A stretch of DNA of 64,000 nt from Watersipora subatra (Eukaryota > Bryozoa > Gymnolaemata > Cheilostomatida > Watersiporidae). Where the stretch lies: positions 60,032,228 to 60,096,227 of the forward strand of contig NC_088716.1 of NCBI RefSeq assembly GCF_963576615.1, given 5' to 3'. The translations under genes and the position numbers were made by a program. A model generated the notes under the pieces. It had not been told where the DNA came from, ran no database searches, and saw only the letters and a list, made by a program, of their open reading frames with translations. Positions 5,221 to 63,684 of this stretch are shown in pieces; the first letter of the stretch is position 1, and every line of letters begins with the position of its first letter.

Positions 5221-5367
5221 CAAACTCCTCAATCGACCCATCCGTTAAAACACGCGACAATCTGTTATCTTCTGCATCTCCTCCCTCAATACATGTGTAT
5301 TCAAGTTCTTCATTTGTCATCAACACAGTACTTGATAAAGTTATCCGTGGGCCGACGTTTTTCCCGG
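5221..5367 (-). CDS. Candidate internal exon, unknown acidic protein
   Basis: On the minus strand a splice-acceptor-like site (TTTATAG) precedes a 147-bp open stretch that ends at a strong donor (G then GTGAGAAG). Read with two bases completing the first codon and one base left over, it is open for 48 codons and phase 1 at both ends. The peptide is acidic and protein-like, with segments TNEELEYTCIEGGDAEDN and LTDGSIEEF. Local GC is higher than the flanks. I do not recognise the protein. Without a start, neighbouring exons or a homologue this remains a prediction; chance open frames of this length occur in AT-rich DNA. Confidence 0.4.
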
Positions 5368-5867
5368 CTATAAATTACGAAAGCTGATGCTTAGTATTTT
5401 ATCTCATGGTTACGCTATTAAACATAGCTAGCTAAACAAGCAAGCTATTGAACTTTTTTAACAAAATGCATGTCTACGGTAACTAATATGCAAACTGCTA
5501 TTCCGATCCCTATTCCTTAACGACGACAACGTCAGGGCTTATAAATTGCTCCAGCGATATTCGTGTCATTATTTAGTTAACAGTAAACGATTAAATGGTT
5601 AAGTTTTAAGCAATACATTTATCAATACATCATTAAAGTTAGCAGGCATATTTTACAAAATAATATTCATAGCTGTGCGAGGGCCTTCTAATAAATATAG
5701 ATACCAAGGGATACAAAGTCTCCTAAAATTTATCCACACAGTTAAGAAATAGACAACAGAGCCAATGCAGAGAAATACATTGAAGCTAAACAAACATATA
5801 AGTGATATATAATATAAGATAGATGTTTACCGGGGTCTTTGATTATCACAGTAGATTTAATTTCTTG

Positions 5868-5988
5868 GCTCAACAATAATCCAAATACACCGTTCAGCAA
5901 TAAGAGAACTAGGTGTTGATGAGGAAAAGAAATATGATTCGTACTGGTTAGTAACATATTGTTGTAGCGCAGTGTTAACAAGATTGCT
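5868..5988. repeat. 121-bp module shared with 62870-62990
   Basis: This 121-bp block is about 93% identical (8 differences by eye) to 62870-62990, while the sequence on either side is unrelated. On the plus strand both copies share one open frame (containing VDEEKKY and YWLV), but most differences change the amino acid, so coding constraint is not indicated. It may be a captured exon or a fragment of a larger repeat. Confidence 0.7.
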
Positions 5989-17430: not shown

Positions 17431-17446
17431 CAAAATATATAGCTAG
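16686..17446 (+). pseudogene. Helitron replicase N-terminal remnant
   Basis: A basic N-terminus (PRRGRCQCSGRPRVSQL) leads to an Asn/Ser-rich linker and an acidic DDDHDFMDIIDHE stretch. After a frameshift comes DCPDFEELHNNFLGRLDNN, a zinc-binding-like CTGCNEKHFITYNAQ with CHTCQQ after a stop, then EFLSSLTLIEQLPIAQVNP. The last block resembles the conserved region found at the N-terminus of many Helitron Rep-helicase proteins (the type annotated DUF6570). Everything downstream (Rep, helicase) is deleted. Family is from memory of the motif, so moderate confidence. Confidence 0.6.
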
Positions 17447-18121: not shown

Positions 18122-18160
18122 TGTTTCAGATCTACTGTTGTTTAGTTGAAGTGGTTTGCT

Positions 18161-19030
18161 TCATGACTTTCCATTTGTTAGAGAATCCACAGCTCTAATG
18201 TGTAAGGTGTTCATTCTATCAGTAGGTGGGCTATCATCTGTCTCAAACACTTTCGCACTCTTTAACATACATTTCTTCGCAAAGTGGTTTCGCCCTCCAC
18301 AATTCTTGCGCTGCTGGCCATAAGCTGAACACTTGCCATTGACATGTTGGTATCCACAATGTCTACAGTTGTATCTAAAATTTTCATTCGATTTAGCCAC
18401 AGATTCATTTGATTTAGTTTCTACTTTATCTACTGAGATAGCTACCTTGTCTCCATCAGATAATTTGCTTAGTTGTAACTGTGTTACTCCTGCAGCCCTA
18501 ATGTCTCCTACAGCTCGAGCAAGCATCATATCCGGGTCTCTCAACATTTTTTCTTTGAGCTTATCAGAGAATAAACCAGAAACTAGTTTGCAAAGCAGCA
18601 TTCTTTCCTGCAAATTACTAAACTCGCATTTTGCTGCTTGCATTTTCAAGCGTTGAACAAAAGAGTCTACATTTTCACCCATACCCTGTGACAGATTCCA
18701 TAAAGTACACAATTCATATAGAATGTTACGCCTAGGATTACAGTAATTTTCAAACTGCAATAACATCAGCAAGTGTGTTTTCATTGTGACCATCTTCATA
18801 TTCAAATTGTGACTAAATTTCGTAAGCCTTCTCATCATCAGTATGCAAAAGTATAACTACCTGCCTGACCGATATAGCTGCATCACCATCGGGAAAGTTC
18901 TGTGGGTCAACAACAGTGCTTGCGCTGAATTGAAACTGGCGCACCACTTTCTCCAGTTTCCAGCCACAATTCCCTCAAAGAATAACTCCTCTGGAAGTTT
19001 CAAACCCCCATGTAAACTCAATCAGCTCTA
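18161..19030 (-). pseudogene. Gypsy G1 gag (capsid and zinc knuckle)
   Basis: The first piece (about 19030-18850) has capsid-start text ELFFEGIVAGNWRKW. After a stop, a 225-codon frame holds the capsid (FENYCNPRRNILYEL, SFVQRLKMQAAKCEF, LVSGLFSDKLKEKML) and a nucleocapsid with cysteines CRHCGYQHVNGKCSAYGQ and CGGRNHFAKKC. The second knuckle has lost its first spacing. It packages element RNA in active relatives. Confidence 0.8.
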
Positions 19031-38141: not shown

Positions 38142-38314
38142 TTAGGAGAGAAAGTGCACTTTTGCATCATCAGCTACAGGGGTCAAATGGTTATCACCTC
38201 CCCTTTTACTTTCACCTTCTCCACGACACTTTAGGACGACCAGGACAACTATGATGAGTATGATTACAATGGGAATGATAACTGCTATAGCTATCACCCA
38301 TGGTTTAGTCTTTC
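38142..38314 (-). CDS. Ig receptor, last exon: transmembrane helix and short tail
   Basis: After the acceptor TTGTTGTAG the exon encodes KTKPW, then a 23-residue hydrophobic helix (WVIAIAVIIPIVI through VVLVVL), a KCR stop-transfer and a tail of about 29 residues ending DDAKVHFLS, stop TAA at 38142-38144. It opens in phase 1, matching the donor of the 39728-39916 exon (Gly codon rebuilt across the intron). The tail has no ITIM, ITAM or kinase motif; it would act as a plain anchor or signal through partners. A partial copy lies at 58393-58481. The gene as a whole is a type I membrane protein with two Ig domains. Confidence 0.8.
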
Positions 38315-39207
38315 CTACAACAATAGACAACAGATAACACTTCAATTCATCACATTCACATCATCTCAGTTATGGATTTGAAGGATTCTGCTTTTTAAAA
38401 ACATGTCAAATCACTTCATGCTGTAGTTGAATTGTACTAGCTCTATGAGAAAGTACAGAAACCGTACATTAGGTCCTTAATGAGCTGATTATAGGATGGC
38501 AAACGGTGTAAAAATATAACTTTTAATGTCATTGTAACAAGGATTAGCGAAAAGGGATGCTCAATGGTAGATGCGAACCAATCAGCAAGAAGAGCAGCGC
38601 CGGAAAAGCTCACTAGCAAAAAGTAGAAACAGATTGAACTTCATAAAGCCTGAATTTTATGACCGTGTGAAACACAGTCTAGACTATTTTTCAACTTTCG
38701 TATGGTATACATAAATACTTCCGACATAGCATGTGAATTCTGCCTATGCTAAACATACTCATTTCTTAGGCTGCAAGTTTACTCTTCCGACTCTAATTGT
38801 ATAACACTTCTATGCCAAATATACATCAATAATATCTTCCTGTTCAACACAGATACGATTTAATGCTTAAGTAACATATTTTAACCGCTCAACCTTTTTC
38901 TTCCTCATGCTGCATGTACACCTTTCAAGCTACAATAATTCCTGCTCCCCGTGTATACTAGCATTTAGCATCATCTCAAGTGTACAACAAGCAGCCTGTC
39001 TATAGTGTATATGTTTCAAGTAAGGCATATACATGTATATATAGTATAAAAGTCATGAGTATGCAGGGACTTGAATACACCTAGACTCAATGTACGCTGC
39101 TTAACATGTCATACTGCAACAGCGAGGAGTAAGCATGAACTGTATTATTTATAACATGAGTAGACTAGGAAATTACCATTAATGAACATTGCTTGACCTA
39201 CAAAATA

Positions 39208-39667
39208 TGAACAAGAGAGATAGTCCAGTTGGTACAACTAGAAGACACCCTGTACTAATAGTAACAAGGGTGAGAGATAGTCCAGTTGGTACAACTAATA
39301 GACACCATGTACTAATAGTAACAAGGGTGAGAGATAGTCCAGTTAGTACAACTAGTAGACACCATGTACTAATAGTAACAAAGGTGAGAGATAGTCTAGT
39401 TGGTCTCAACTAGTAGACATCATGTACTAATAGTAACAAGGGTGAGAGATAGTCCAGTTGGTACAACTAGAAGACACCATGTACTAACAGTAACAAGGGT
39501 GAGAGATAGTCCAGTTGATACAACTAGTAGACACCATGTACTAATAGTAACAAGGGTGAGAGAGAGTTCAGTTAGTACAACTAGTAGATACCATGTACTA
39601 ATAGTAACAAGGGTGAGAGATAGTCCAGTTAGTACAACTAGTAGAAACCATGTACTAATAGTCATTA
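39208..39667. repeat. 57-bp minisatellite, 8 units
   Basis: The unit begins AGAGATAGTCCAGTTGGTAC and includes ACCATGTACTAATAGTAACA. Because 57 is a multiple of three, it is open on both strands (19-residue periodic peptides), which is an artefact of period length. It lies in the last intron of the Ig receptor, 55 bp from the donor of the 39728-39916 exon. The duplicate locus has 19 units (59375-60460). Confidence 0.9.
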
Positions 39668-39727
39668 GGAACACAATAAGCTTCACTTATTGTTCACACA
39701 AAACTACATGCTCTCACTGACACCAAC

Positions 39728-39916
39728 CATTTTTCAGCTTCTCTTTTGTTGACTGCAGCATGTAAAGGCCTGTCGTTGTCTCTACTGGAGGCGTGAACTC
39801 GTACAGAATAATCCTTGTCTGAGAGATGGCCTCCTCATCTCCCAAACTCCTAAACACTCTACATTCGAGGATGGAGTCATTTTGAAAAACAGCTACAAAT
39901 AGAGGTGGTGTACTTT
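39728..39916 (-). CDS. Ig receptor exon: second half of Ig domain 2
   Basis: The exon runs from acceptor CCCTTAG to donor GTTGGT, 189 bp, phase 1 at both ends. It encodes STPPLFVAVFQNDSILECRV, then FRSLGDEEAISQTRIILYE and a juxtamembrane stretch ending STKEKLKN. The Cys of LECRV is 70 residues after the Cys of exon 41769-42008 once spliced, the distance expected for an Ig disulfide, so it is the F-strand Cys. NDS is a potential N-glycosylation site. A copy with a 12-bp deletion and a 1-bp insertion lies at 60524-60701. Confidence 0.8.
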
Positions 39917-40203
39917 CTAAGGGTCATTCTATACTGTAAACAAAGTGTGCATCGGTCAAGGTTCTTACACTAAATAAGTAGCTCACAGACTCATGAGGTA
40001 AACTTGTGTCCTTTAACTATCCTCGCTCACTATCTTAAAGCTAATACCATAAAGTTTTTTGAGAGATTTGTACCTTTCGTAGACCAGAAGACAAACACAC
40101 TCTAGCTCCACCCTAGCAATAAGCAATAAAAACAATTATTTGTATTATCAAGCCAATATTTTAGTAAAAACGTTCACAAAAGTAGTTTTATGGTTATTCA
40201 TAA

Positions 40204-40238
40204 ATCAGGGCATTAATTTTGATTATTAATGCCCTGAT
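40204..40238. repeat. Perfect 14-bp hairpin
   Basis: ATCAGGGCATTAAT and its exact reverse complement are separated by 7 nt. The duplicate at about 60988-61022 keeps the left arm but has mismatches in the right arm. Confidence 0.85.
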
Positions 40239-40401
40239 CAAAGGTACTCCCCATCAAACTCTACTATAAAACTGCAATCCAGAAGATGCAATACAGCCAA
40301 ACTCTTATTCTCCAAATGCTATCCAATAAACGTCAAAGCTCACTTTTCTCTTTAATTAATTTCACTTTATTGGAGCTTTAACACTCATTCGTCTTAATGA
40401 C

Positions 40402-40854
40402 CTTGATGACCTTAAACAAAATTTGTGTAGATTTCATCAGAATTATAATATTTTTCTAGCATTTACGATTGTTTTGTTGTTTTGGATGTTCTGAATGCCT
40501 AAGTGTTTCAAAATTAAAATTGATAAAACTTATTCGTGACTAAAATGCTCAGAATATAAATATGTGCAAAATGACATCATTAGTTGTTATCATTGAGATA
40601 CTTGATATGGGCTACTGGGTTCAAGTTGAATCGTTACATGTTTCTATTCTGTCAATTTCTCTGTAACTATAGACAACATAATTACATTTTTGCTTGCTCT
40701 GAGTGTTTTAATGCCGATTAATATTTATCGATTTTAATTTTGAAACAATCTGGCAGCATCACCTCAAACATCAAAAACAATCACAAATGAGAGAAAAATA
40801 CCGATCCGATGCTTTCTGAGAAAATTTGCTAAAATTTGTGTGCAAGTTTATCTT
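40402..40854. repeat. Foldback element, family C (copy 2)
   Basis: Inverted ends of about 120 bp; the right end finishes GCAAGTTTATCTT and is followed by TAAGC, which is the empty version of the site where foldback A copy 3 inserted at the duplicate locus. Confidence 0.8.
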
Positions 40855-41768
40855 TAAGCAAAGTCTATTTTACAGCTCAAATACTTGATTTTATTTTACA
40901 CTGTTGATAGTATTATTTAAAAAAGTTCTTTTCGGTATTATTGGGTGTTGCATTTTAGTAAGCAATTGGACTAATTCAGAAAGGTTATAAGTCACTCTAT
41001 CTATAGATGTTTATGGCATCCTTCACAATGCATGTTAATCAAAGCTTAGTAGTTTCACAGCTTACATAATTACTTCAAACTGTTTCTGGTTAGACTTAGC
41101 ACTGGTGTTTATAGAATATAGCTTCTTGCTATAAATAAAGAGTGACAGTTTTGTTGCTGCTCAAGTTGTTGTGATAAAAACCTTTAAAAACAGAATGAAA
41201 AAGGGAGAACCCAGCTGCACGGCGTCTCAAATTTTAGCAAATTAAACAAACGAGAAGTGGCATGATGTGGACTGATCACCTACAGCTTGCTTTCTGTCAC
41301 AATAAAATAGAGTTATTACCTTTGTCACTAGTTATTATTATTAACACTTTAGTGACTAGAAATATAGTCTTTTAATTATGTTTATGAATTAAAAGTGACA
41401 AACGGGAGCTGGCAAAGCTACCCTGTAACCTGAAGCTCAACGGGAAGGATCATGTTTTTTGTCACATAAGGCAGGCCACTTACAGCTCACTTATTCTGAC
41501 ATGCATGTATATCCGCAACAGAATGTAAAATATTTCATAAGCCTTGAGAAGTCTGAAGATGAATTACCCATCTCCAATACCAACATTTTACAGTTTTTTA
41601 TAGGATTTACCAAAAATAATCATTCCTTGTATTTTGTAAAATAGTCGTTCAAACCTAGCTAGTTGGGCTAATCATTGCAGCCAGGCGGAGTCAATGAACA
41701 TGGGCTATTTGTAAAAATACTAGAAAGGGAAAATAAGTAGGCGAATGTACCAGAGCCATCTGTCCTAC

Positions 41769-42008
41769 CTGTCATATTGTTGACGACAAAGCTGGCCTTA
41801 TGTGAATTGACATCGGTACTGAGGACATCAACCTCATATTCAGTAACTCCGGGTGTGTTTCCATCAAGAACAACTGATTGAAGCCTAAACTCTATTCGTT
41901 CTGGGAAAGGATATGACAGAGCCTCACAAGTGAACTTCACTCTCATCTCTTCTATGCCAAAAACAAACTTACTGCGTTTGTTGTTTATCAGAGTGGCTTG
42001 TGGGAGGC
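41769..42008 (-). CDS. Ig receptor exon: first half of Ig domain 2
   Basis: 240 bp from acceptor GATTGTAG to donor GTAGGA, phase 1 at both ends. It encodes LPQATLINNKRSKFVFGIEE, then MRVKFTCEALSYPFPERIEF with the B-strand Cys, and ends DVNSHKASFVVNNMT. The usual Trp about 12-15 residues after the Cys is replaced (IEFRL), so the domain lacks the core Trp. NMT is a glycosylation sequon. A splice to 39728-39916 restores a Glu codon. Confidence 0.8.
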
Positions 42009-42110
42009 CTACAATCGAAGATTGTTTGTGATGATAAGTACAGTATGTACATATATATCTATATCAACATATATAGATATACATATACACACATATATAT
42101 ATATATATAA

Positions 42111-42564
42111 ATAAAATTTATTCATGTAAAACCTTAGATAAAAAGCAACTTCATTACTATTAGTTTCATGTCTGTTACGCAGACAATCATCAGATAAAAT
42201 TGTTTTGGTCCAACTGAGTTATATATAAGAAAGGTGTAAATACTATAACGACTGATAGCTATGTAATTGCATTTCGTAGTGTGTATTTAGCAGAATGTCG
42301 GCATGTGGAAGCTAGCTCATTACGCTTGTTGAGTGAGCTCATTTCTGGCTTTGTGAGGATGATATACTTTTCTGATATGCACAGGTTACAACGCTTAGTG
42401 GCTGGGTCGTATGGCCTTGCGTGTTGAATGATTTTCCATTTAATCGTATACGGTGTGTTCAGGCCTTTTAGCTGCCAGATGTAGTTACTAAGCTTTGTGG
42501 CAGATTGCTTGTCCTGGTGCCTGAAAGATGATATGTGGCCGCTGAATCGTGTCTTAAAGGAATT
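42111..42564 (-). repeat. Inverted 3'-end copy (pseudo-LTR) of the Penelope-like element
   Basis: This is the reverse complement of 43714-44172, including the coding sequence of the GIY-YIG C-terminal part and the 3' UTR. Confidence 0.9.
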
Positions 42565-42654
42565 TTCAAAGGAAATTATTATTATTAAAGGAATAAAGGG
42601 TAGAAATTGACTACGTCAATTTATAGAACAAAGATAGAGCTACCTTTATAGAGT

Positions 42655-44024
42655 TTGACGTAGTCAATTTCTACCCCTCTATCTCAGCCGAACTCCTCCA
42701 ATCAGCATTAAAATTTGCATCGAACTATAATAACATTACACCTGAGGACACAGACATCATCATGCACACCAAACAATCAGTGTTATTCAACGGAAATACA
42801 ACGTGAGGCAAAAAGGGAGAAAACTCCCATTTTGACGTGACAATGGGGAGTTACGACGGAGCAGAAACATGCGAATTAATTGGTTCATTCTTACTACACG
42901 AGATCAGTAAAAAGCACAGCATCAACCTAGGACTGTATAGAGATGACGGTTTAGCAGTAACAAGATCTACACCCCACCAAGCCGAAAAACTAAAAAAAGA
43001 CCTCTGCCTTATATTCAAGAAGCACGGACTAAACATCACAGCCGAAACCAACAAAAAAGTGACACACTTCCTAGACGTCACATTCGACCTAACAACTGGG
43101 AAATACTCACCGTACAACAAACCCAATAACATCTCGTCATACATCCACACTCAATCCAACCACCCACCCTGCATTATAAAGCAGCTACCTCAAGCAATCA
43201 ACCACCGACTATCAGCAATCTCATTCGATGCTAGTGAGTTCAACCGAGCAGCACCACCGTACCAGCAGGCATTGGCAACAAGCGGATATACACACCAGCT
43301 GAAATTCACACCCCATGAAACCACTACACCAACTAAACAACACAGGCGACGAAGAAAAATCACATGGTTCAACCCACCATATAGCAGAAACGTGGCAAAT
43401 AACATCGGTCAGACATTCATCAAAATATTAAATAAATCTTTTCCGAGCAATCACCCTCTAAGAAAGTTATTTAATAGAAACAACACAAAGATTGGCTACA
43501 GCTGCATGCCTAATATCAAACAAACCATCAACAATCACAATAAGAAGCTTTTGAGCAACACCTCGACGCACCCAGCAAACAACAAAACATGCAACTGTCG
43601 AGCACCAAATGAATGCCCTCTTGAAGGAAACTGTCTTAGCAAGTCGCTCATTTACCAAGCTGTAGTCACCGCAGACGACGGTAGCAAACCTACAGAAAGT
43701 TATATTGGCCTCACAGAAAATTCCTTTAAGACACGATTCAGCGGCCACATATCATCTTTCAGGCACCAGGACAAGCAATCTGCCACAAAGCTTAGTAACT
43801 ACATCTGGCAGCTAAAAGGCCTGAACACACCGTATACGATTAAATGGAAAATCATTCAACACGCAAGGCCATACGACCCAGCCACCAAGCGTTGTAACCT
43901 GTGCATATCAGAAAAGTATATCATCCTTACAAAGCCAGAAATGAGCTCACTCAACAAGCGTAATGAGCTAGCTTCCACATGCCGACATTCTGCTAAATAC
44001 ACACTACGAAATGCAATTACATAG
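42655..44024 (+). pseudogene. Penelope-type reverse transcriptase with GIY-YIG endonuclease
   Basis: The frame begins in RT at FDVVNFYPSISAELL (first catalytic Asp), meets a TGA at 42804-42806 at a Trp position, then is open for 395 codons from 42837. Residue numbers below count from that Met. GSYDGAETCEL and the active site YRDD (34-37) complete the palm, then a thumb/linker. Next is a zinc-binding CNC...C...C cluster (252-266) and a GIY-YIG endonuclease with SYIGLTENSFKTRFSGH (288-304, catalytic Arg 300 and His 304). The N-terminal RT half is missing. In active relatives the protein copies element RNA and nicks the target. Confidence 0.9.
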
Positions 44025-44313
44025 CTATCAGTCGTTATAGTATTTACACCTTTCTTATATATAACTCAGTTGGACCAAAACAATTTTATCTGATGATTGT
44101 CTGCGTAACAGACATGAAACTAATAGTAATGAAGTTGTTTTTTATCTAAGGTTTTACATGAATAAATTTTATATTTAAGCTCTGATCACTATTTGAGCAC
44201 TATTTGGCAGCTTTAACACACTACTTTGGAATATATATATATATGTATGCATATATATATATATATATATACATGTAGATATATGTGTACAGGATACATG
44301 GATACAGGGCGGA

Positions 44314-44369
44314 TAGCGCAGTTGGCAAGGTGTCGGGACAGTGATCATTAGGTACTAGGTTCAAACCCC
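44314..44369 (+). promoter_or_regulatory. tRNA-like pol III A and B boxes at the head of LINE copy 1
   Basis: TAGCGCAGTTGG (A box) and GGTTCAAACCCC (B box) fit the consensus exactly and are 44 bp apart start to start, as in tRNA-derived SINEs. Confidence 0.75.
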
Positions 44370-44433
44370 AACAACTGCCCCCTTCTGGCAATCCTTAGAC
44401 AAGACCCTTGCTTGTATAACATCTACAACCTCT

Positions 44434-45782
44434 ATGATGAGTGCAATAACCAAAGCCATGCCGGCTCGGACGTCGCCCGATCAAACAAGATCAGGAAAAT
44501 GGGCTACTGGTTCAATACGGATGAAATGGACTCGGACTGATATCACCGACCTCATGCAGTGCTACTTTATGAGTGAGCCTCAAAGGTGGGGCTATATGGA
44601 AAGGATGCGTCAACTGTGGATAAACATGTGCCCTGAATTGCCACTAACCGCTAAGCAACTTGTAGCTCAGAGGAGTAACATATTCAAGCGGCACCTCATA
44701 TCAGAACTTGAGGTAGATGAAATTAGGGAACAGTTTACCCAAGTAACCTCAACCAACGAGGAGTGCATATCATCACACACTGTCACACATATACGATCTT
44801 GTGTTAACTCACAAGTTGAAGAAGACCTTGACCCAAGGTTGAAGGAGCTTGCGGAAAATATCATCAACAAGATGCCAGCTGCTAATGATTATGGATGCAG
44901 GGTACCACTACGGAGAGTTAGCAAGACTATACCCAAGGAGCTGTTAGAAGACATTAACTTGGCACTGGAGTCGATCTCAACTAAACCGATCAGTGAGACT
45001 AATACCTTAATCTACAGTATGGCAACCGTCGTTTTGGAGGAGATGGGTATTAATCCACTGTCAACAAAACTTCAAGCCATTCCATCTTGGCAGATGAGGC
45101 TACAAATTAAGATCAAGGATTTGCACAAGAAAGTTAGTAGGTTCAGTGAAAGATCTAACCACTGTTTGGAGCGTCCAAAAAGGGAAGCCACAATAGAAGC
45201 TCTAGAATCTGCCAAACAGCATCTAGTAGCACTCTCGGCACGACTGAAGCGGTACACCAAAAAGCGGGATAACAAGAGAATGAACAAACTGTTCATCAAT
45301 AATCCATCTAAAGTGTATTCTCAGTTCAAAGGTGAACTGGGGAGGTCAATGTCAGATCCTCCCTGATCCAGCACCTTAAAGTTCTGGAAGGAAATCTGGG
45401 AGAAAGAGACAACTCATAACACCACTGCAAATTGGCTGAAGAGGCTTAAAGAAAGTAACCAACACATTGTGGCTCAGCAAGGACTCACCATCAGCGAAGT
45501 GGACATCAAGTGCAGAGTGCAGCGTATGAAGAACTGGGCAGCACCTGGCCATGACATGATTCAAGCCTTCTGGTTGAAAAAATTGACATCACTTTACACT
45601 AGAATGGCTAAGCAGATGGAATGCCTAATAGAAGAAGGCGACCATCCGGAATGGCTGACCAAAGGACGAACTGTACCTCTGATAAAAGATCCAAAGCAGG
45701 AGCCGATTCCCAAAAACTATCGACCAATACCGTGCTTGCCCACCACCTGGAAACTGCTTTCAGGAATAGTTGCAGACAAACC
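44434..45782 (+). pseudogene. LINE ORF, N-terminal part (copy 1)
   Basis: A 310-codon frame encodes the N-terminal region: WTRTDITDLMQCYFMSEPQR, LTAKQLVAQRSNIFKRHLIS, a middle of unknown fold, and a basic helical end with MNKLFINNPSKVYSQFKGEL. It ends at a TGA (45364-45366; copy 2 has CGA there). The same frame then continues through TISEVDIKCRVQRMKNWAAP and the RT start YRPIPCLPTTWKLLSGI. Copy 1 preserves a segment near 44930-44985 that is deleted in copy 2. Confidence 0.85.
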
Positions 45783-45789
45783 AGAAGAG

Positions 45790-46163
45790 GATGGCATCTC
45801 GCTCAGTCAGCTCACTACGAAAACCTCTGTCTTCACATCTCTCAAGCGGATAGTTAGACAGATTATTCCGTAGAAGGAAAGCCGTGTTCCGTCAGCCAAT
45901 AGTCGGTGGCTGTCACTATCCTTGAGCCAGTCCTGCACGGTTCCTGGCAATCGATCAAATACCTGTTTATTGATCAGATTGGTGGTGCATCCGGTGTCTA
46001 GTAGGAACTGGATGGGCCGCCCCTCCACTTTTCCTGAGAGGAAATAGCTGGTGGAGGGCGGTCGGCTGAGGGCTTGCGCCCTAGTGGTGTCTTCCAGGAC
46101 ATTCTTCGTGAGACCTGGAAGGCTTTCTTTCCGTGATGGGGCGAGGTCAGTACCTCGGGCCAT
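45790..46163 (-). pseudogene. Gypsy G3 protease
   Basis: The frame contains SYFLSGKVEGRPIQFLLDTG with the D-T-G active site, then CTTNLINKQVFDRLPG and RLLADGTRLSFYGII. The usual continuation appears in another frame as ERDAIL just before the junction at 45786. Active relatives use it to mature Gag and Pol. Confidence 0.85.
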
Positions 46164-46518
46164 CCCATGCCCGGAGCAATTTTGCTGTTCTCGTGATTGC
46201 CTCCCTTAAGGCGGAGAAGGGGGTCAGCCCTATCGCTTTTAATGCAGGCTACCGCCTGTCCGGTCCAGTGGAGATGTTTCTCAGTGTCTGGGATGGAGGA
46301 AATTTGGGAGTCACCCTCCGGCGCTTCGGGTTACGTCCCTGCCATTCGCATGAAGAGGCGTAGGCAATATCCAGGACAGAGGGCTGTCCAGAATAATCTC
46401 ATCCAAAGACTGGTAATAATTCCGTGTCACCACAGGTCCTTCCTGTACACGAATTCTCCTTGGCCTAGTCCTTGCTGGTTGAGAACAGCCATCAGCCGTC
46501 GTATAGTCCCGCGAAATC

Positions 46519-47224
46519 CTAGTATATTTCCGTGTTTGCTTGGTCTTGGCACAGCCAGTAGTCGGAGCTACTGCTGTGGCCGTCCTTCATTTTTCGAAGC
46601 CAGTCTGGTGTGGCGAGGGCAATTCTTTGGTACATGCCCCGGTTGGCCACATCTCCCTGGATTTGGAGATAGTCATTTCCGGCTTGTACAGCGTCCGCCA
46701 GCGTGGGCGTAGGTATGGCCAGCAGATGTCTCTGCCGGGCAGGGTCCCTCAGCAAGCTGCAGAAAGTCTCCATAGCCATGCTATTTCGGTGGCGATTCGG
46801 CAGGTCCCCGTACGCAATGCGCACCAGCCTTTCCACCCACCTCCATAGCATGCTCCTGCAGCGTCGTCCCTTCCTCTCGCCGAAGGGCGTTGAGCTGGCT
46901 CAGCGCCTGCCTAGCGGATAGTCCGAGCCTTGCCCAGAAGGCATTGAAAATGACCTCCTGGTCCTCGGCTCGCCCACAGTTCTCAGCCTGGTTGGCCAAC
47001 GCTTCCCGGAGGTGCAATAAAGTTGCCCCTTCCGTCTACTGGTTGGCGTCGGCTACTTCTGTGAAGCGAGCAATAAAGTATTCCACATCTCCTTTCTCAG
47101 TATACTGGAGAGTCCTGAAGCGCGGCGCCCGTTCCTGAGCTCTCGGCATCAGCAACACCCGCTCTAGTGGCACGACTAGTCGGTCGGGTCCCGGGTCAGC
47201 GCTCCTGGCTCTCCTGTTAACCAT
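46519..47224 (-). pseudogene. Gypsy G3 gag
   Basis: Three overlapping minus-strand frames form one capsid-type region. The first starts MVNRRARSADPGPDRLVVPL and includes LQYTEKGDVEYFIARFTEVA. The next has FNAFWARLGLSARQALSQLN. The third has RIAYGDLPNRHRNSMAMETF, DPARQRHLLAIPTPTLADAV and DYWLCQDQ, possibly a damaged zinc knuckle. At least two frameshifts are needed to pass from one to the next. Confidence 0.75.
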
Positions 47225-47259
47225 GTCTGGCTCCTAGTAGGTTTCTGCTCCTCTCCCAT

Positions 47260-47610
47260 AGCAGTGCCTCTGCTGTGTCCGCGGCTGATGGTTTCTTTCT
47301 GGGTTTCTTCCCGTAAAAAGTTCTTCCAGTAGAACTACACCGCTTCTTTAAGCAAGTCCCGCCGGATCCCTTAGTAGGTTCCTGCTCCTGAAGCAGTGCA
47401 TCTACCGGATCCGATTGGCAGGCTTTTCGCAGCTTTTCCTGGGTTTCTTCTGGTCGAAAGTTCTTTCAGTAGGAGCTTGCTGCCTTCTCAGATAAGTCCT
47501 TTTAGTAGGTTTCTGCTCCCGGAGCAGTGCATCTATTAATCCTGTAGGGCTTTCCACAGCTTTCTCTGGGTTTCTCCCAGTAGGAAGTTCTTCCAGTAAG
47601 AATGGTTTTG
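47260..47610 (-). repeat. Degenerate tandem repeats in the Gypsy G3 leader
   Basis: Three imperfect units of about 100-130 bp, each with GGGTTTCTTCYNG, AGTTCTTYCAGTAG and a CTGCTCC...GCAGTGC block, lie between the primer-binding site and gag. Confidence 0.7.
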
Positions 47611-47689
47611 CCATTTTTCAAGCAGCCCTAGTTTATCCAGAGTCCAATGATCCAATGCAAGTTCTGTGGTAGAGTTCTTGGGATTCTAC

Positions 47690-47709
47690 CAATCCCACTG
47701 CTGCCACCA
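47690..47709 (-). promoter_or_regulatory. Primer-binding site of Gypsy G3
   Basis: TGGTGGCAGCAGTGGGATTG lies one base after the LTR end (TTTTACA) on the minus strand. Confidence 0.65.
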
Positions 47710-47710
47710 G

Positions 47711-48197
47711 TGTAAAAGTTTTTGCAACCTTTACTTTCCTCCACTAGTACAAGACTCGTGCATGAGTACAATATACATATATTTCTGCTTAGTTCATGAA
47801 GGTGTACAAGAAAGAATCAAGTAACAGGCAATAAACAGGCCCAGAACAGCTCTGCTCTCTACTGCAAAGGTTCGTGCTTATATAGCTGCTAAACTTCACC
47901 CTTGTTCTGCTTGGTTAGACCTGGCATGGCTTGGCCCAGTTTGGTACCGAGTCGGTACGGCTCTGGCTTGGCTGTAGCTTGACTCAACTTGGCTGTACAT
48001 CGGCTTGGCTTGGCTAAATGTATGGGGGCGCCATCAACCACACTATATTGCAGCATATGTACAGAGGCCCTCATGTAACTAAACTACAGCATATGTACAG
48101 AGGCCCTCAGGTGCTACGAACTACTTACATATAGCCAAGAAGTAGTTAACAAGAGCCACTGTGCCATTTATTAAACTACATATTTTCTGCCACAACA
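47711..48197 (-). mobile_element. 5' LTR of Gypsy G3
   Basis: 487 bp, TGTTGTGGCAG to ACTTTTACA on the minus strand. It contains a TATATAA box (47878-47884) about where U3 would end. It also has two tandem copies of a 35-bp phrase (ACTACAGCATATGTACAGAG, about 48060-48115) and several GGCTTGGCT repeats (47925-48015). Confidence 0.8.
47878..47884 (-). promoter_or_regulatory. TATA box in the Gypsy G3 LTR
   Basis: TATATAA on the minus strand, in an otherwise GC-richer LTR, followed by GCACGAACC as a possible start region. Confidence 0.6.
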
Positions 48198-48353
48198 GAT
48201 TCAATTGTGTTAAGGAAGACACAGCTAGTCTTTAGAATTTATTTACACTCACCGCCCTGACATTTGGTACCTTGCAGCATGAATTAAATGTAGCCCAAAA
48301 TTGGCCCAAAGCCCTTGTCTTGGCAACTAAAAGGTATAATAATTTTTACTTAC

Positions 48354-48559
48354 TATTGACTGTGAACCTCTCACTCAAGAAGGATTTGGGGTACCCCCTT
48401 ACAGTAGCCTGACAACGGTACTCTCCACCATGCTTGACCGGGTTGAAGTCTTTAATAGTTAGAGTATAGTTGGCTCCAGTATGTGCCAGGCTAGATATTA
48501 CTGTGTCACTAGTTAACAAGGGTCTCCACACTCCCCTCGTCTGCCTCCCGAGGAATTGC
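48354..48559 (-). CDS. Ig receptor exon: second half of Ig domain 1
   Basis: 206 bp from acceptor CCTTTCTTAG to a consensus donor GTAAGT. It opens in phase 2, completing the Trp codon begun in exon 49505-49628, and ends in phase 1. It encodes QFLGRQTRGVWRPLLTSD, then TGANYTLTIKDFNPVKHGGE with YRCQA, the F-strand Y-x-C motif, and RFTVN as the G strand. The two domain-1 Cys are 67 residues apart. NYT is a glycosylation sequon. Confidence 0.85.
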
Positions 48560-49504
48560 CTAAGAAAGGCATAAGATTTAGACATCTGCTAAGTAAAGTG
48601 AACCTCATTTTCTATACTTTGCTAAATGTGAGAGAACAGAACAATATAATCTTCCTCCTGAAAGTGCAGGGTGGTAACTCATAATATTTGCCTGAGCAGG
48701 CCCACTTTTTTATTCCAATGTGTGTTCAATCCTTTACAAAACAAGTATGATGTTTACTTAGCTTACTGCAAGCAGAGGCTGCGATGTTTTTAAAAACATT
48801 GATGCACAAGCAATGGCTCTATGATCTTGGCTAGAAGTGTCAGAGTCCAGTGGCAAGGAAACTTTGTCTACTTGAGACATGTCCAGTTACAAAGAGTGGT
48901 TTAAGGTTGGATGTCATTCCTGTCACCACCAGTAACCAGATGTCATTGTTGTCACCACCATTTTTAAGAGTTGAATCCGCACCAGATGTTTGCAAGTCAG
49001 GCATTCTACCCTCATTAGGTCACAATGCTTGGGGCACAAACAAGGTTCACAATTCCACCTAGCAAGGTGCCCAGACAATTAGCTACAGTATACTTCTGAT
49101 TCGCCATTTGTTCGCAGATGGATAGGAACATTACTATGCAACCTTAACATATAGATATTCTCATTGATCACACATATAAGATCTTTCTAAAGAGTAAAAT
49201 CTTTAGTGTTATGCTAATGTGTTGTCAAGGGTAACTGCTGACTTTGAAAGATTAGTTTGTTCAAATTTATCAAATTGTGTTTGTTCAGTTTCATAAACAA
49301 AACCTGGCATAAATGTTAGTGTTACAAAAAATTCATTTTTACTCTGACACAAAGTTAGGGCATGATTAAAAAAATGTCACTGAATGCATAACTGCTCAAA
49401 ACTAAAAAATTAAAAAAATGGATTATAACTACTGCTTAAAGAAAAATCAGAAAAAGGATGACAATTCCCAAACAATAGCAATTTAAAGAACACGCTAGGC
49501 ATAC
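48560..49504 (-). other. Intron of the Ig receptor
   Basis: A phase 2 intron splitting Ig domain 1, from donor GTATGC (at 49504) to acceptor at 48560. AT-rich, with no repeat family recognised. A 70-codon plus-strand frame (48850-49062) is not supported by anything else. Confidence 0.7.
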
Positions 49505-49628
49505 CAATCAACGCTGAAGATGTTTATGTAAGAGATGTCACTGGGTGTCATATCTACTGAGCAATAAAATTGCTGCTCAGTTCCATAGGCATTTCTGTCG
49601 AGATCTTTGTCCGCTGATACATTCAGCA
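49505..49628 (-). CDS. Ig receptor exon: first half of Ig domain 1
   Basis: 124 bp from acceptor GTGTTTTAG to donor GTATGC, phase 1 at the start and phase 2 at the end. It encodes LNVSADKDLDRNAYGTEQQ, then FYCSVDMTPSDISYINIFSV with DW, giving the B-strand Cys and the core Trp 19 residues later (V-set-like spacing). The Trp codon is completed by the next exon. NVS is a glycosylation sequon. The upstream exon with the signal peptide was not found in the 0.2 kb before the LINE or beyond it. Confidence 0.8.
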
Positions 49629-51081: not shown

Positions 51082-53349
51082 AAGGACATCTGGGAGAAAA
51101 AGACTACTCATAACACCACTGTAAATTGGCTGAAGAGGCTTAAAGAGAGCCATCAACACACTGTGGCTCAGCAAGGACTCACCATCAGCAAAGAGGACAT
51201 CAAGTGCAGAGTGCAGCGTATGAAGAACTGGGCAGCACCTGGCCATGACATGATTCAAGCCTTCTGGTTAAAGAAATTGACATCACTTCACACTAGAATG
51301 GCTAAGCGGATGGAATGCCTAATAGAACAAGGTGACCATTCAGAATGGCTGACCAAAGGACGAACTGTACTTCTGATAAAAGATCCAAAGCAGAAGCCGA
51401 TTCCCAAAAACTATCGACCAATAACGTGCTTGCCCACCACCTGGAAACTGCTTTCAGGAATAGTTGCAGACAAACTGGGAGAGCACATGAGTCACTATAT
51501 GACCAGTGCTCAGAAAGGAATTTGGCGCAACACCCGAGGAGCAAAACATCAGTTACTGGTAGATCGGACGGTCTGTCAAGACAGCAGGAGAAGGCAAACC
51601 AATCTTGCCATGGCTTGGATTGACTACAAAAAGGCCTATGACTCAATTCTCCAGAGTTGGATACTTGAGTGCCTCAGTATGTACAATGTTCACCCTGCTC
51701 TTGTGGCATTCATCAAAATGTCAATGACCAAATGGAAGACGGAACTGGAGGCTAATGGCAAAAAGCTGGCGAGTGTAAAAATTAAGCGAGGCATCTATCA
51801 AGGTGACTTCTTATCACCGCTGCTCTTCTGCATATGCCTAAACCATCTAAACAATATGCTGGAGGACACTCAATATGGGTACCAGTTTAAGAGTGGCACC
51901 AAGATCAACCACCTCTTCTACATGGATGACATCAAGCTGTACGCTAACAAAGAAAGGTACATTGATTCGCTAATACACCTCACTCAGGTATACAGCAAGG
52001 ACATCGGAATGACCTTCGGTATTGAAAAATGTGGAAGGATAATTCTTAAGAAAGGCCATTCTATGCTCACAGATGGCCTGAGAATGCCAAATGGTACCAT
52101 CAAAGATATAGAAGAAGGGTACAAGTACTTGGGGATTATGCAAAGCAACATCAACCACGAAGCCGAGGTACGTCACAAAGCCATTACCGAATACAAGAAA
52201 CACCTTCCGCAGGTCTTACGGAGCCAGCTCAATGCCAAGAACCAAGTCATGGCAATAAATACCTACGCACTGCCAGTAATAAGATATCCATCAGGCATAA
52301 TAAAGTGGACTGAGGAAGCCATCAAAGGAACAGATATAGCAACTTGTAAACTGCTGACCATGCATGGAGCACTCCACCCAAAATCTGATACTACTAGATT
52401 GTATCTTGATAGGAAAGATGGCGGTAGAGGACTCAAAAGTGTACAGCAGACAGTAAAAGAGGAGGAGCAAAGCATCAAAGCATATGCAACCTCCATGGCC
52501 ATTTCAGATAAGTTGCTAGCTAAATTTCAATCGGCTGCTCTTACAACGGACCTACGCCCTGATGATGAGGAAATTGACTGGCACACGAAACCTCTTCATG
52601 GTGCTTACCACCAACAAATATCTAAGGTTGGTGATCTTCACCAGACATATATGTGGCTGAACAAAGGAAACCTAACGGCCAATACAGAGTCGCTAATCAT
52701 GGCAGCCCAGGAGCAAGTGCTCCCAACAAGGCAACTCCAAACGAATATCTATCACACTAGAGATGATCCTAGATGCAGACTGTGCAAAGATGCACCTGAG
52801 ACCATCCAACACATCATCAGTGGATGCAAGCAGCTAGCAGGAAACGCATACACTGAGCGGCATAATCATGTCGCAGGAGTTGTGTATAGAAGTCTATGTG
52901 ATGAGTATGGCCTTAATAAACCACAACACTGGTGGGAAGCTCCTGGTAAGGTCAATGAAAATGACCGCGCTAAGATCCTCTGGGACTTCTACATCCGAAC
53001 TGACAAGCATGTTCTAGCAAACCAACCAGATATAGTGGTGGTAGACAAGGAGAACAAGAGGGCTACTATAACAGATATAGCAGTACCCAATGACTACAAT
53101 ATAGCCAGCAAGGAAAAAGAAAAGGTAGAGAAATATCTCCCTCTGGGAGAAGAGATTGAAAAATGCTGGAATGTAAGAGCAACTGTAATCCCAGTAGTCA
53201 TTGGGGCACTGGGCGCAATAACACTGGCGCGTAAAATTTGGTTTGCACAAATACCAACAACAATCAACTCAGGTGAGCTGCAAAAAAGTGCGCTACTGGG
53301 AACAGCTAAGATCTTGAGGCGAGTGCTCAAACCCCCAGGTCTCTGGTAG
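51082..53349 (+). CDS. LINE reverse transcriptase with restriction-like endonuclease
   Basis: The frame is open from 51082; the first Met is at 51163, giving 728 residues. RT motifs: YRPITCLPTTWKLLSGI (about 84-100), motif A MAWIDYKKAYD (150-160), motif B GIYQGDFLSPLLF (210-222), and active site YMDD (253-256). KYLGI (321-325) follows. A zinc-binding CRLC...H...C (Cys 538, Cys 541, His 550, Cys 555) precedes the endonuclease, whose QPDIVVVD (621-628) and TITDIAVP (635-642) give the PD-D residues. The C-terminus GTAKILRRVLKPPGLW is typical of the family. It primes cDNA synthesis at a nick in DNA. The N-terminal part is broken, so autonomy is doubtful. Confidence 0.9.
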   Translation, partial: KDIWEKKTTHNTTVNWLKRLKESHQHTVAQQGLTISKEDIKCRVQRMKNWAAPGHDMIQAFWLKKLTSLHTRMAKRMECLIEQGDHSEWLTKGRTVLLIKDPKQKPIPKNYRPITCLPTTWKLLSGIVADKLGEHMSHYMTSAQKGIWRNTRGAKHQLLVDRTVCQDSRRRQTNLAMAWIDYKKAYDSILQSWILECLSMYNVHPALVAFIKMSMTKWKTELEANGKKLASVKIKRGIYQGDFLSPLLFCICLNHLNNMLEDTQYGYQFKSGTKINHLFYMDDIKLYANKERYIDSLIHLTQVYSKDIGMTFGIEKCGRIILKKGHSMLTDGLRMPNGTIKDIEEGYKYLGIMQSNINHEAEVRHKAITEYKKHLPQVLRSQLNAKNQVMAINTYALPVIRYPSGIIKWTEEAIKGTDIATCKLLTMHGALHPKSDTTRLYLDRKDGGRGLKSVQQTVKEEEQSIKAYATSMAISDKLLAKFQSAALTTDLRPDDEEIDWHTKPLHGAYHQQISKVGDLHQTYMWLNKGNLTANTESLIMAAQEQVLPTRQLQTNIYHTRDDPRCRLCKDAPETIQHIISGCKQLAGNAYTERHNHVAGVVYRSLCDEYGLNKPQHWWEAPGKVNENDRAKILWDFYIRTDKHVLANQPDIVVVDKENKRATITDIAVPNDYNIASKEKEKVEKYLPLGEEIEKCWNVRATVIPVVIGALGAITLARKIWFAQIPTTINSGELQKSALLGTAKILRRVLKPPGLW

Positions 53350-55788: not shown

Positions 55789-57284
55789 ATTATTATTGTA
55801 TAATTTATAAATATGCAGATTTATAGCATGTTATTTAATAGCATCCTTGCGGCTATCTCAACACTGCTTACGATGGATCGATGCTCATAATTCCACTTCT
55901 ACTGCACATAGAAAGCTAGTTTTGGCTGCAAACTGTAGCAAACATATAAAAGAGTGCAATGAGTTTTTATTCAATAATGTTAAGTCTAGATATAAAATAA
56001 AAACATGTCTTCAAATTTAGAATGCAATATAAATTGAAAATGCCAGTAAATTGCAAAGAAGAACACAAGCATATCATCGCAGCTCAATTGCAAGCAACGG
56101 ATATCAGCTGGTAGAGATATTTCCCGGTTTCTCGATGCACATTTTTTAAGAGATCTTTGGCAAGTTAGAGGTAAGTTAACAGATTTATTGCATCCAAAAG
56201 GTTTAATATCGCTCCACCAAAAATGGAGCAAAACATAGGTGACATTCGCTTCGCCCGTAATAGGGCTAAATTCATCTTCCGAAAATTTTGACGAGCCATT
56301 TGACAAATAGACCGCCAGCCTCTATTTAAACGCTGCCTCCAATTGACCACCACTATAACAGAAAGGTTGACAAATAGAGCGCCATGGCGTTCAATTGGTT
56401 TTATTATTTCGTTATTTGGTTTACGGTATATGATTTTAATACTAGTTTTAGTGTTATTATTGAAAGGCAAAAATGTCATATAGAGTGGTATAGAAACCCA
56501 TAGTAATTATTTAATGCAATGACCCCTGATAAAAATCATCAAAATTTTATATATGTACGTATATACAAACCCCAAACCCAAATTATTTAACTTTTAATAT
56601 ATTAAAAATTAGTAACAAAGTAATACATGTTAACCTTAGTAACCATAGTTTCCTACAGTAACTTTAGTGTATTCAGAAGATATGATTTGCAAGAATTCGT
56701 AACATTATAAAGTACTACATATACCGGAGAGTTCTTACCTTCGAGACAGACGTATAACGTAAATGTTAAATTTAGCATCAATGAATTTAGCTTATTAAAC
56801 ACATACTTGAAGCTAAGTTTTATTATGTATTTTAATAAATTTCGACTTTCTCATTGACTGAAATTTTATCATTTATCTGTTTGTCGGTTTCATTTTTGCT
56901 ATAACTTACAATGAAAAATACTAAACTGAGATAGCGAGCATCATATCTTTTTCAGTAGTTGTGGGAGGGATTTTGGAAGCGTATCGGCACTATAGTTATT
57001 TCCTCGTAATCAGTACATCGACTGCCAAATGTTAATTTAGAGAGAAATTTTTCTTGATATCATATGGCGAAATAAGTCAAAAAGGTTTTGCCCTAGTATG
57101 GCGAGGATGACAAACCTCGTGTTCCATATAGTAAGGCAAAAAACCTTATAAGAGGGGCATCGTAACCCGAGGACGCACTGAATAAATTAATAATAAAAAA
57201 TGCACATTTGGCATGTGCAATCGTGAAAAGATACACAATATATGATGAGCTTTGGATGTGATAAAAATAGCTTAGTTTTGTGGT

Positions 57285-58284: not shown

Positions 58285-58398
58285 CCCACGACCAAACAAG
58301 AGCGAAGCGATTGATTGGGAGATTTATGATAAAGGCACATGTGCACACAACTCCCGAAAAATTATCCGTTAACAGCCGTCACCAAACCCTTGTTACGA
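58285..58398 (+). mobile_element. Helentron 5' end, family B (copy 5), truncated
   Basis: CCCACGACCAAACAAGAGCG and about 110 bp of family B sequence are present, ending abruptly at CCTTGTTACGAAG where the duplicated Ig receptor locus begins. Confidence 0.8.
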
Positions 58399-58481
58399 AG
58401 TTACGAGCAGGACAACTATGATGAGTATGATTACAATGGGAATGATAACTGCTATAGCTATCACCCATGGTTTAGTCTTTC
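58393..58481 (-). CDS. Duplicated Ig receptor membrane exon, ending in Helentron sequence
   Basis: Same acceptor (TTGTTGTAG) and phase as 38142-38314. It encodes KTKPW and the hydrophobic helix through IVVL, identical to copy 1, but at the duplication breakpoint (58405-58410) it continues into other sequence: LVTS then TAA (58393-58395). The cytoplasmic tail of copy 1 is therefore replaced by a few residues. If expressed, the product would be a tail-less membrane form. Confidence 0.6.
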
Positions 58482-59374: not shown

Positions 59375-60460
59375 TGAACAAGAGAGATAGTCCAGTCGGT
59401 ACAACTAGAAGACACCCTGTACTAATAGTAACAAGAGTGAGAGATAGGCCAGTCGGTACAACTAGAAGACACCCTGTACTAATAGTAACAAGGGTGAGAG
59501 ATAGTCTAGTTGGTACAACTAGTAGACACCATGTACTAATAGTAACAAGGGTGAGAGATAGTCCAGTTAGTACAACTCGTAGACACCATGTACTAATAGT
59601 AACAAAGGTGAGAGATAGTCTAGTTGGTACAACCAGTAGACACCATGTACTAATAGTAACAAGGGTGAGAGATAGTCCAGTTGGTCTCAACTAGTAGACA
59701 TCATGTACTAATAGTAACAAGGGTGAGAGATAGTCCAGTTGGTACAACTAGAAGACACCCTGTACTAATAGTAACAAGGGTGAGAGATAGTCTAGTTGGT
59801 ACAACTAGTAGACACCATGTACTAATAGTAACAAGGGTGAGAGATAGTCCAGTTAGTACAACTAGTAGACACCATGTATTAATAGTAACAAAGGTGAGAG
59901 ATAGTCTAGTTGGTACAACCAGTAGACACCATGTACTAATAGTAACAAGGGTGAGAGATAGTCCAGTTAGTACAACCAGTAGACACCATGTACTAATAGT
60001 AACAAGGGTGAGAGATAGTCCAGTTGGTAAAACTAGAAGACACCATGTACTAACAGTAACAAGGTTGAGAGATAGTCCAGTTGATACAACTAGTAGACAC
60101 CATGTACTAATAGTAACAAGGGTGAGAGATAGTCCAGTTAGTACAACTAGTAGATACCATGTACTAATAGTAACAAGGGTGAGAGATATTTCAGTTGGTC
60201 TTAACTAGTAGACATCATGTACTAATAGTAACAAGGGTGAGAGATAGTCCAGTTGGTAGAAGTAGTAGACACCATGTACTAATAGTAACAAGGTTGAGAG
60301 ACATTCCAGTTGGTCTTAACTAGTAGAAACCATGTACTAATAGTAACAAGGGTGAGAAATAGTCCAGTTGGCACAACTACTAGACACTATGTACTAATAA
60401 TAACAAGTGTTGAAGATATTCCAGTTGATACAACTAGTAGAAACCATGTACTAATAGTCA
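59375..60460. repeat. 57-bp minisatellite, 19 units
   Basis: Same unit as 39208-39667, expanded. Variant units (GGTACAACTAGAAGACACCC, GTACAACCAGTAGACACC) recur in a higher-order pattern between 59390 and 60000. Two units carry GGTCTCAACTAGTAGACATC, which changes the period and breaks the periodic open frames. Confidence 0.9.
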
Positions 60461-60523: not shown

Positions 60524-60701
60524 CATTTTTCAGCTTCTCTTTTGTTGACTGCAGCATTGTTGACTCAACTGGAGGCATGTCCTCTATCAAAATAATCCTT
60601 GTCTGAGAGATGGCCTCCTTCCTTCCTAAGCTTCTAAACACTCGACATTCGAAGATGGAGTCATTTTTAAAAACAGCTACAAATAGAAGTGGGTGTACAT
60701 T
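60524..60701 (-). pseudogene. Duplicated Ig receptor exon (second half of Ig domain 2)
   Basis: Acceptor (GCATAG) and donor (GTTGGT) are kept, and the text FVAVFKNDSIFECRVFRSLG and ISQTRIIL is preserved. Relative to 39728-39916 there is an in-frame 12-bp deletion (VETTTGLYM shortened to VESTM) and a 1-bp insertion close to the acceptor. The insertion shifts the start to phase 0, so it would not join a phase 1 upstream exon in frame. It is probably decaying, unless the upstream exon of this copy compensates. Confidence 0.65.
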
Positions 60702-62869: not shown

Positions 62870-62990
62870 GCTCAACAATAATCCAAATACACCATTCAGC
62901 AGTAAGAGAACTAAGTGTTGATGAGGAAAAGAAATATCATTCGTATTGGTTAGTAGCATATTGCTGTAGCACAGTGTTAACAAGATTGCT
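62870..62990. repeat. 121-bp module shared with 5868-5988
   Basis: See 5868-5988. Here it sits between GGCATGC-rich edges within repeat D copy a. Confidence 0.7.
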
Positions 62991-63684
62991 CAAATATTGG
63001 CATGCAGAACTATCGTAGGCTATAGACGTACATACAGTGGTATAGAAACCCATAATAATTATCTAATGCAATCACCTCCTGTTAAAAATCACCAAAATCA
63101 TCATCATCATTAAAAATAGTAACAAAACAATATGTTAACCTTTACATGTTACAATGACTTTAGTACATTTTGTGGTTATGATCTGCAAGATAATATAACA
63201 TTACAATGTACTATGTGCAGAGTTCCAAAATTCAAGACAGACATTTAACATAAACGCTGAATGTAACTTAAATGATTTTAGCTTACTAAACAATACTTGA
63301 CAGAGGTTTTGATATATATGTATTTTAGTAAACTTCAAAGTTTGAACTAAAATTTTATCGTTTATCTGTTTTTGAATCGGCTTTTACCATAACGGATAAT
63401 GCTGAACTCGCCATGGTTAGCAACGTATATCTCTTAATAACGCATATAATCAGTACACTAAGTGCTAAATTTTAATTCCGAGCGAAATTATTGTTGATAT
63501 CTGCTGACAGAAAAAATTTGCCCTAACAAAAACTATTGAAGAAGCATCGTAATTCCTAGAGTTAGGCAAAAAATATTTCATAACAGGGGCATCGTAACAC
63601 ATAGGCACAATGCTCAAATAATACGTCATTTACTGTGTGCATATGCTATACGGTATATGATGTCTTTGAACAATACGCCTTGTA

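Follow-up and report, generated by a model that had tools for sequence, protein, structure and literature searches.

An incomplete tandem copy of a predicted three-Ig-domain surface receptor gene in the bryozoan Watersipora subatra

Kirrel carries five immunoglobulin (Ig) domains and nephrin more, and the Alr genes of the Hydractinia allorecognition complex encode clustered Ig-type surface receptors with tandem copies. Here we describe a gene family of the bryozoan Watersipora subatra located on chromosome 9 (contig C9), part of which lies in a window of 64,000 nucleotides (NC_088716.1, positions 60,032,228 to 60,096,227 of the forward strand; eight-digit coordinates below are those of the contig, shorter ones those of the window). 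An earlier note, made from the letters of the window, had joined five minus-strand exons into an undescribed two-domain Ig receptor. The polymorphism of Alr1 and Alr2 is discussed in PMC8129030, and bryozoans are counted among the animals with self/non-self recognition in passages of two reviews, PMC12018476 and PMC8129030, where no genes are named. The Flustra genome paper (PMC13326412) has no mention of immunoglobulin or allorecognition. In the titles and abstract starts of open-licence papers retrieved for allorecognition or immune receptors of bryozoans no gene of this kind was named, and none of the open-licence papers searched joined Watersipora, genome and immunoglobulin; the family was not met in these papers.

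Judged from sequence, the five exons are real, but they make up an incomplete tandem copy (hereafter copy B) of a putative surface receptor gene with three Ig domains. It is highly probable that they represent exons E1 to E5 of a single-pass receptor gene that was duplicated in tandem. The copies were compared over 164 kb, i.e., the window and 100 kb of adjoining DNA, while genome-wide searches covered 783,720,542 bases in 239 contigs, of which C9 accounts for 64,042,602 bases. A Hox probe gave eight matches in this genome at E<=1e-9, including a Lox5 type with KLTGPN, a pb type interrupted by an intron, a Post2 type and two Dfd types on two contigs; in three cheilostomes, pb, Dfda, Lox5 and Post2 are reported to occur together and Dfdb elsewhere (PMC10675955). 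Mitochondrial COX1 had no match in the assembly. Within the 164-kb region each of the exons E1 to E5 occurs three times, in the same order and on the same strand, with copy A directly downstream of B and copy C upstream. In the whole genome E1 is found at three places (3/3 matches at E<=1). Over the aligned parts A and C are 77-96% identical to B; the counterparts of E1 share 95% (A) and 93% (C) of its amino acids, and E1 is also present in a distant relative, D, situated 1.3 Mb away. The exons of copy B are as follows.

49505..49628, minus strand: exon E1, N-terminal half of Ig domain 1; begins in phase 1 and ends in phase 2, splitting a Trp codon
48354..48559, minus strand: exon E2, C-terminal half of Ig domain 1; begins in phase 2 and ends in phase 1
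41769..42008, minus strand: exon E3, N-terminal half of Ig domain 2; both ends in phase 1
39728..39892, minus strand: exon E4 from its corrected start, C-terminal half of Ig domain 2 plus stalk; both ends in phase 1
38142..38314, minus strand: exon E5, membrane helix, short tail and stop

Most of what had been claimed for these exons holds. The exons have GT/AG edges, their frames are open, the phases agree and the last exon ends in a stop; domain 1 is split by a phase 2 intron and domain 2 by a phase 1 intron, and the codon of the core Trp (residue 41 of the product) is rebuilt across intron 1. The four sequons (NVS, NYT, NMT and NDS) and a long hydrophobic membrane helix are likewise there. 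The junctions had been quoted as intron ends, and seven of the eight are right; the one that falls is the exon 4 acceptor at 39917, which lies inside the intron behind a poor pyrimidine tract. The conserved acceptor, TTTGTAG/C, has a good pyrimidine tract and starts the exon at 39892, 24 bases inside the exon first proposed. It is kept in phase 1 in A, B and C, and it aligns to the same residue as the acceptor of D (AVFQNDS over ELFPNGS). A first model of exon 4 with the old acceptor left A and C out of phase; A could be rescued by an AAAG acceptor, C was broken, and the model was dropped. Placing the acceptor 24 bases further in removes the phase conflict in all three copies. An F-strand exon thought to be missing was sought in intron 3 and not found, and with the corrected acceptor it is no longer needed. 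The corrected product of copy B has 301 amino acids, with ectodomain Cys at positions 22, 90, 137 and 200. The spacing of 67 residues given for the first Cys pair thus stands, while that of the second becomes 62 instead of 70 because exon 4 starts at 39892. Near position 39800, the part of E4 that reads ILYEFTPPV in B differs sharply among A, B and C (LTND, LYEF and LIED, respectively), and copy C has a four-codon in-frame gap near this variable stretch.

Copy A and, apart from its tail, copy C display what appears to be the full form of the family: a leader exon, Ig domain 0 (U1 and U2), domain 1 (E1 and E2), domain 2 (E3 and E4) and E5, which provides the helix and the tail, each Ig domain being split by an intron. 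The parts of both copies that fall in the window are listed here; exons U2 to E5 of A lie to its left, and the leader to E3 of C to its right.

5831..5957, minus strand: leader exon of copy A, ending in phase 1; signal peptide judged by eye
5221..5367, minus strand: exon U1 of copy A, N-terminal half of Ig domain 0; both ends in phase 1
60524..60676, minus strand: exon E4 of copy C, the counterpart of E4 in copy B
58393..58481, minus strand: exon E5 of copy C, membrane helix followed immediately by a stop; tail lost

The model of copy A has eight exons and stays open over 576 amino acids, with a leader, three Ig domains, a membrane helix and a tail rich in tyrosine and proline. That of copy C, also of eight exons, is open over 413 amino acids and tail-less. 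Phases match at all seven joins in both A and C. The joins of A are placed at C9:60038058/60037594, 60037448/60023308, 60023153/60020644, 60020521/60013370, 60013165/60010349, 60010107/60007307 and 60007143/60003405; in C, U2 ends at 60106644 and E4 at 60092751. A single-pass type I layout (leader, ectodomain, one helix, tail) is seen in the model of A, its leader and helix being judged on hydrophobicity and by eye; C lacks the tail and B the leader. Copy C ends with a stop directly after the helix (VVLLVTS), its E5 being fused to the flank upstream of B. The full tail frame is found in A only: the 187-residue E5 frame of A, used as a query, gave five matches, which were A over its full length, B over 55 residues, C over 35 residues and two weak hits at other places (E 0.14, 0.22). 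In B, aligned DNA homology of E5 with A ends near 38186. The leader exon has three places in the genome at E<=1 (A, C and one fragment) and U1 five (A, C and three distant ones, E 0.017 to 0.17); for U2, a search of the 164-kb region matched A and C. The leader, U1 and U2 had been located through a coding-signature scan and comparison with the distant relative. The scan serves as a pointer only, because a segment of A outside the gene model (at 60030616) scored 6.2, equal to E1.

The leader, U1 and U2, present in A and C, were not found at copy B. The upstream homology of B to C and A ends near 58172, before their U2 and near the junction with the cut E5 of C. Between B and C no leader-like exon common with A or C was found, and the upstream block common to all three copies yielded no leader. 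A and C themselves share upstream DNA blocks spread over about 47 kb in A and 29 kb in C. The one further place matched by the leader exon lies inside intron 3 of copy C:

62870..62997, minus strand: fragment of the leader-exon region, 128 bases

Read from 62997 to 62870, this fragment has an open continuation without a GT donor in the needed phase 1. A block common to the upstream flank of B (56480-56882) and intron 3 of C (C9:60095259-60095598) continues into the leader fragment in C and diverges before it in B. Leader candidates near B were not conserved, and the best of them was a 40-base, 13-residue frame at 56778-56739 (MLNLTFTLYVCLE), whose donor AAG/GTAAGA, in phase 1, would join E1 in frame. 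The candidate was rejected because the homologous block of C has kept neither its ATG nor its donor. In all three copies an in-frame ATG stands 19 bases before the first base of E1, which would give a very short lead only. Copy B does not look like a complete gene for a two-domain receptor, since the family form has three Ig domains and the reported set comes without a leader, without domain 0, the first Ig domain of its relatives, and without most of the tail.

What kind of protein the family encodes is suggested by its ectodomain. Copy B contains Ig-type receptor coding sequence with a predicted membrane helix: the paired B- and F-strand Cys are present in domain 1 (C22-C90) and domain 2 (C137-C200), and domain 1 has the core Trp (W41) and a GEYRC corner (G-x-Y-x-C). 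A, B, C and D all have these four ectodomain Cys without variation. With the corrected acceptor, which was used for the four-ectodomain alignment, the comparison of A with D and the profile searches, the Ig_3 profile matches all four ectodomains at E<=1 (best E 4.3e-7). Among solved chains, a profile built from the four ectodomains picks out SYG-2 (E=0.0014) and Kirrel3 (E=0.01). The tail of copy A has no match above the curated cut-off in Pfam and none in NCBIfam (a prokaryote library); it contains a proline run and tyrosines within motifs like YDTP and IYAS. Such tyrosine contexts and proline runs suit SH2 and SH3 domains.

The family extends beyond the three tandem copies. Used as genome queries, E3 of B and E3 of D retrieve the same nine loci, all on C9, namely A, B, C and six at 58.62-58.81 Mb (cluster C9:58.59-58.82 Mb). 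They are nine of nine matches in one search and nine of eleven in the other, where the extra two (E=0.17) contain stops; counts of loci for large families are lower bounds. In the distant cluster one of the six E3-like loci, D, was read beyond the search match, over 30 kb. It keeps the order U1, U2, E1, E2, E3, E4 (the edges of its U2 not being fixed) and has the corrected exon 4 edge and the Trp-splitting phase-2 intron in common with A-C. This intron is old, because E1 of D ends in TG/GTAAGT. The ectodomains of A and D are 28% identical over 309 residues (E=7e-38).

That the agreement among the five exons exceeds chance, as originally claimed, is best seen in their recurrence, in order, in two paralogues with a ratio of non-synonymous to synonymous substitution rates (dN/dS) of 0.27 to 0.32. 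Open frames alone are weak evidence and homology is strong evidence. When overlapping intron windows aligned between copies were scanned for a shared frame with no stop or frameshift, leaving out stretches more than 97% identical, such frames turned up at each window length: 120 nt (377/1776 windows), 165 nt (181/1505), 201 nt (66/1321) and 240 nt (8/1134). Pairwise dN/dS is 0.30 for A/C (a count that takes in the leader, U1 and U2), 0.32 for A/B and 0.27 for B/C, with E5 counted over its first 75 bases. Constraint varies widely by exon, E1 to E3 being well kept and the leader, U2 and E4 less so, and the indels before E5 all preserve the frame, affecting one codon of E3 in A and four codons of E4 in C. 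Where the third copy decides on which branch a change fell, synonymous/non-synonymous changes number 23/23 for A with the root (p=5e-5) and 14/10 for C (p=2e-4), against a neutral non-synonymous share of 0.772 and with two three-state columns left out. These tests are rough because changes are treated as independent and the neutral share as fixed. The anatomy, homology and phases of the copies, and constraint on A and C, can be read from the sequence itself; for B the counts leave the matter unsettled (p=0.08). The five exons of B contain no stop and no frameshift, unlike an old dead fragment. Over the first 75 bases of E5 (38240-38315) there is no silent change among A, B and C, the dS of the other exons being 0.09 to 0.39, and the 40 intron bases before E5 are nearly identical in the three copies, which suggests gene conversion or constraint.

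A number of results weigh against reading the copies in this way. In A, B and C, domain 2 lacks both the core Trp, which D does have there, and the G-x-Y-x-C corner. Wherever bit scores were given for Ig_3 (26.4, 18.7, 21.0 and 21.3) they stay under the curated cut-off of 30, and Ig_3 was not listed at E<=1 for the first full-length model of A. When single sequences were compared with solved chains, there were weak matches only and no Ig-domain receptor for either B (five matches at E<=10, one of them, at E=1.2, to a major histocompatibility complex class I chain through the helix) or A (two matches); the early Pfam and solved-chain queries for A and B carried the old exon 4 acceptor. The membrane exon of D was not found within the 30 kb examined, and the E4 donor, GTTGGT, is weak. 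Between A and C constraint is weak in the leader (dN 0.134, dS 0.203) and in U2 (dN 0.072, dS 0.129), and on the branch of B, with 8 synonymous and 13 non-synonymous changes (p=0.08), constraint is not proven.

Partner binding, signalling, a decoy role, the history of the duplications and any use of B are what we infer from this layout. Copy A would act as a surface adhesion or recognition receptor whose Ig domains bind a partner; once phosphorylated, the tyrosines of its tail, together with the proline-rich stretch, could dock SH2/SH3 adaptors. Copy C, full-length and tail-less, would fit a decoy or ligand-only form. Copy B may have originated from a shorter duplication that took neither leader nor domain 0 and, as modelled, would not enter the secretory pathway by itself.

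As to the fate of copy B, the chance is close to even that it is an unexpressed gene fragment, recently duplicated and heading to decay. Apart from the missing leader, U1, U2 and full tail, transposon reading frames occur in its intron 2 and upstream, and on its branch E4 has collected seven non-synonymous changes to one synonymous, giving the overall 13/8 that differs from neutral with p=0.08 only. However, all five frames and splice sites are intact, and E1-E3 show seven synonymous and six non-synonymous changes, fewer of the latter than the neutral share predicts. If copy B is used, it most likely provides downstream exons of C, because the exons of C join those of B in frame; it may serve in this way and may equally be an unused fragment. 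That C and B are one gene, in which the leader and domain 0 of C (or C through E4) are spliced to E1-E5 or to E5 of B, can be put forward tentatively, and its products would be receptors of three or five Ig domains with the short tail of B. The three composites tried are all in frame with one stop: C from leader to U2 with E1-E5 of B (445 amino acids), C from leader to E4 with E5 of B (441 amino acids) and C from leader to E4 with E1-E5 of B (686 amino acids). E1 to E4 form a phase 1/1 block, E5 of C has no tail, B stands directly behind C on the same strand and its exons are free of stops and frameshifts, all of which is consistent with a composite gene. Yet C closes with an in-frame stop of its own behind the helix and can be a gene by itself, and in-frame joining is weak evidence because phase-1 joins are common.

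An independent two-domain receptor whose leader exon escaped recognition seems unlikely. The intact E1 to E5 with membrane helix and stop would suit such a gene, as would the 40-base frame upstream, with its in-frame join to E1, and the conserved ATG just before E1, very short as the resulting lead would be. Against it, the 40-base frame is not kept in C, no leader-like exon in common with A or C was found between B and C, and the leader fragment in intron 3 of C has no phase-1 donor. At the scale of the whole family, a very improbable reading is that the nine loci of chromosome 9 form a recognition complex of the bryozoan. Full-length signalling receptors of the A type would then stand next to tail-less (C) and partial (B) copies, and phase-1 Ig blocks spliced from one neighbouring copy to another would diversify the receptors that decide whether colonies fuse or reject each other.

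The copies are surrounded by repeats and mobile elements. A 57-bp minisatellite occupies intron 4, with about 8 units in B (39215-39662) and about 19 in C (59382-60458), and intron 4 of A contains repeats that match it. Intron 2 contains a tandem repeat that advances in steps of 36 bp and is long in A (C9:60011384-60012846) and C (60100019-60100574) and short in B (48042-48112). In intron 1 of copy A, a frame resembling the F/G-strand half of an Ig domain (60015430-60015290) was considered as a captured Ig exon and taken as chance; it had been picked from 7883 first-look candidates, of which 150 were scored, and Pfam gave no match for it at E<=1. The frame belongs to a dispersed repeat of 1.38 kb that has inverted ends (TACCCTAGGACACTTAT), is bordered by TA and occurs at many places in the genome, nine other copies being 97-98% identical to this one. 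Transposon reading frames in the window are found at the following positions.

51082-53349, plus strand: transposon reading frame
44359-45873, plus strand: transposon reading frame
42807-44024, plus strand: transposon reading frame
12258-18856, minus strand: transposon reading frame

An RVT_1 frame lies upstream of copy B, with a similar piece in intron 2 of B, and this intron also has a frame with an end that we take to be GIY-YIG-like. Further left in the window, one match is to a reverse-transcriptase RNase H and another, weak, to gag.

Exons joined by hand can thus be genuine and yet misdescribe the gene: the absent leader, the third domain and the one wrong acceptor were exposed only through comparison from copy to copy. 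The Ig receptor family appears to be real in a bryozoan, ordinary in kind and a lead for recognition genes. Small and clustered, with full, tail-less and partial copies, it offers concrete candidates for self/non-self recognition that are worth testing for a role between colonies, and RNA sequencing data and an annotation are publicly available for W. subatra.

Possible counterparts include the distant cluster on the same contig, whose member D has the same order from U1 to E4 and the same Trp-splitting intron, but differs by its low identity to copy A and by a membrane exon that was not found. With Nephrin, Kirrel and SYG the family shares the single-pass architecture, the ectodomain of several Ig domains, a tail rich in Tyr and Pro (in copy A) and the weak profile matches to SYG-2 and Kirrel3. 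The number of Ig domains is different, however, A and C having three, each split by an intron. The Alr receptors of Hydractinia can be set beside the family by description only, being Ig-type surface receptors of a colonial animal whose genes are clustered and include tandem copies.

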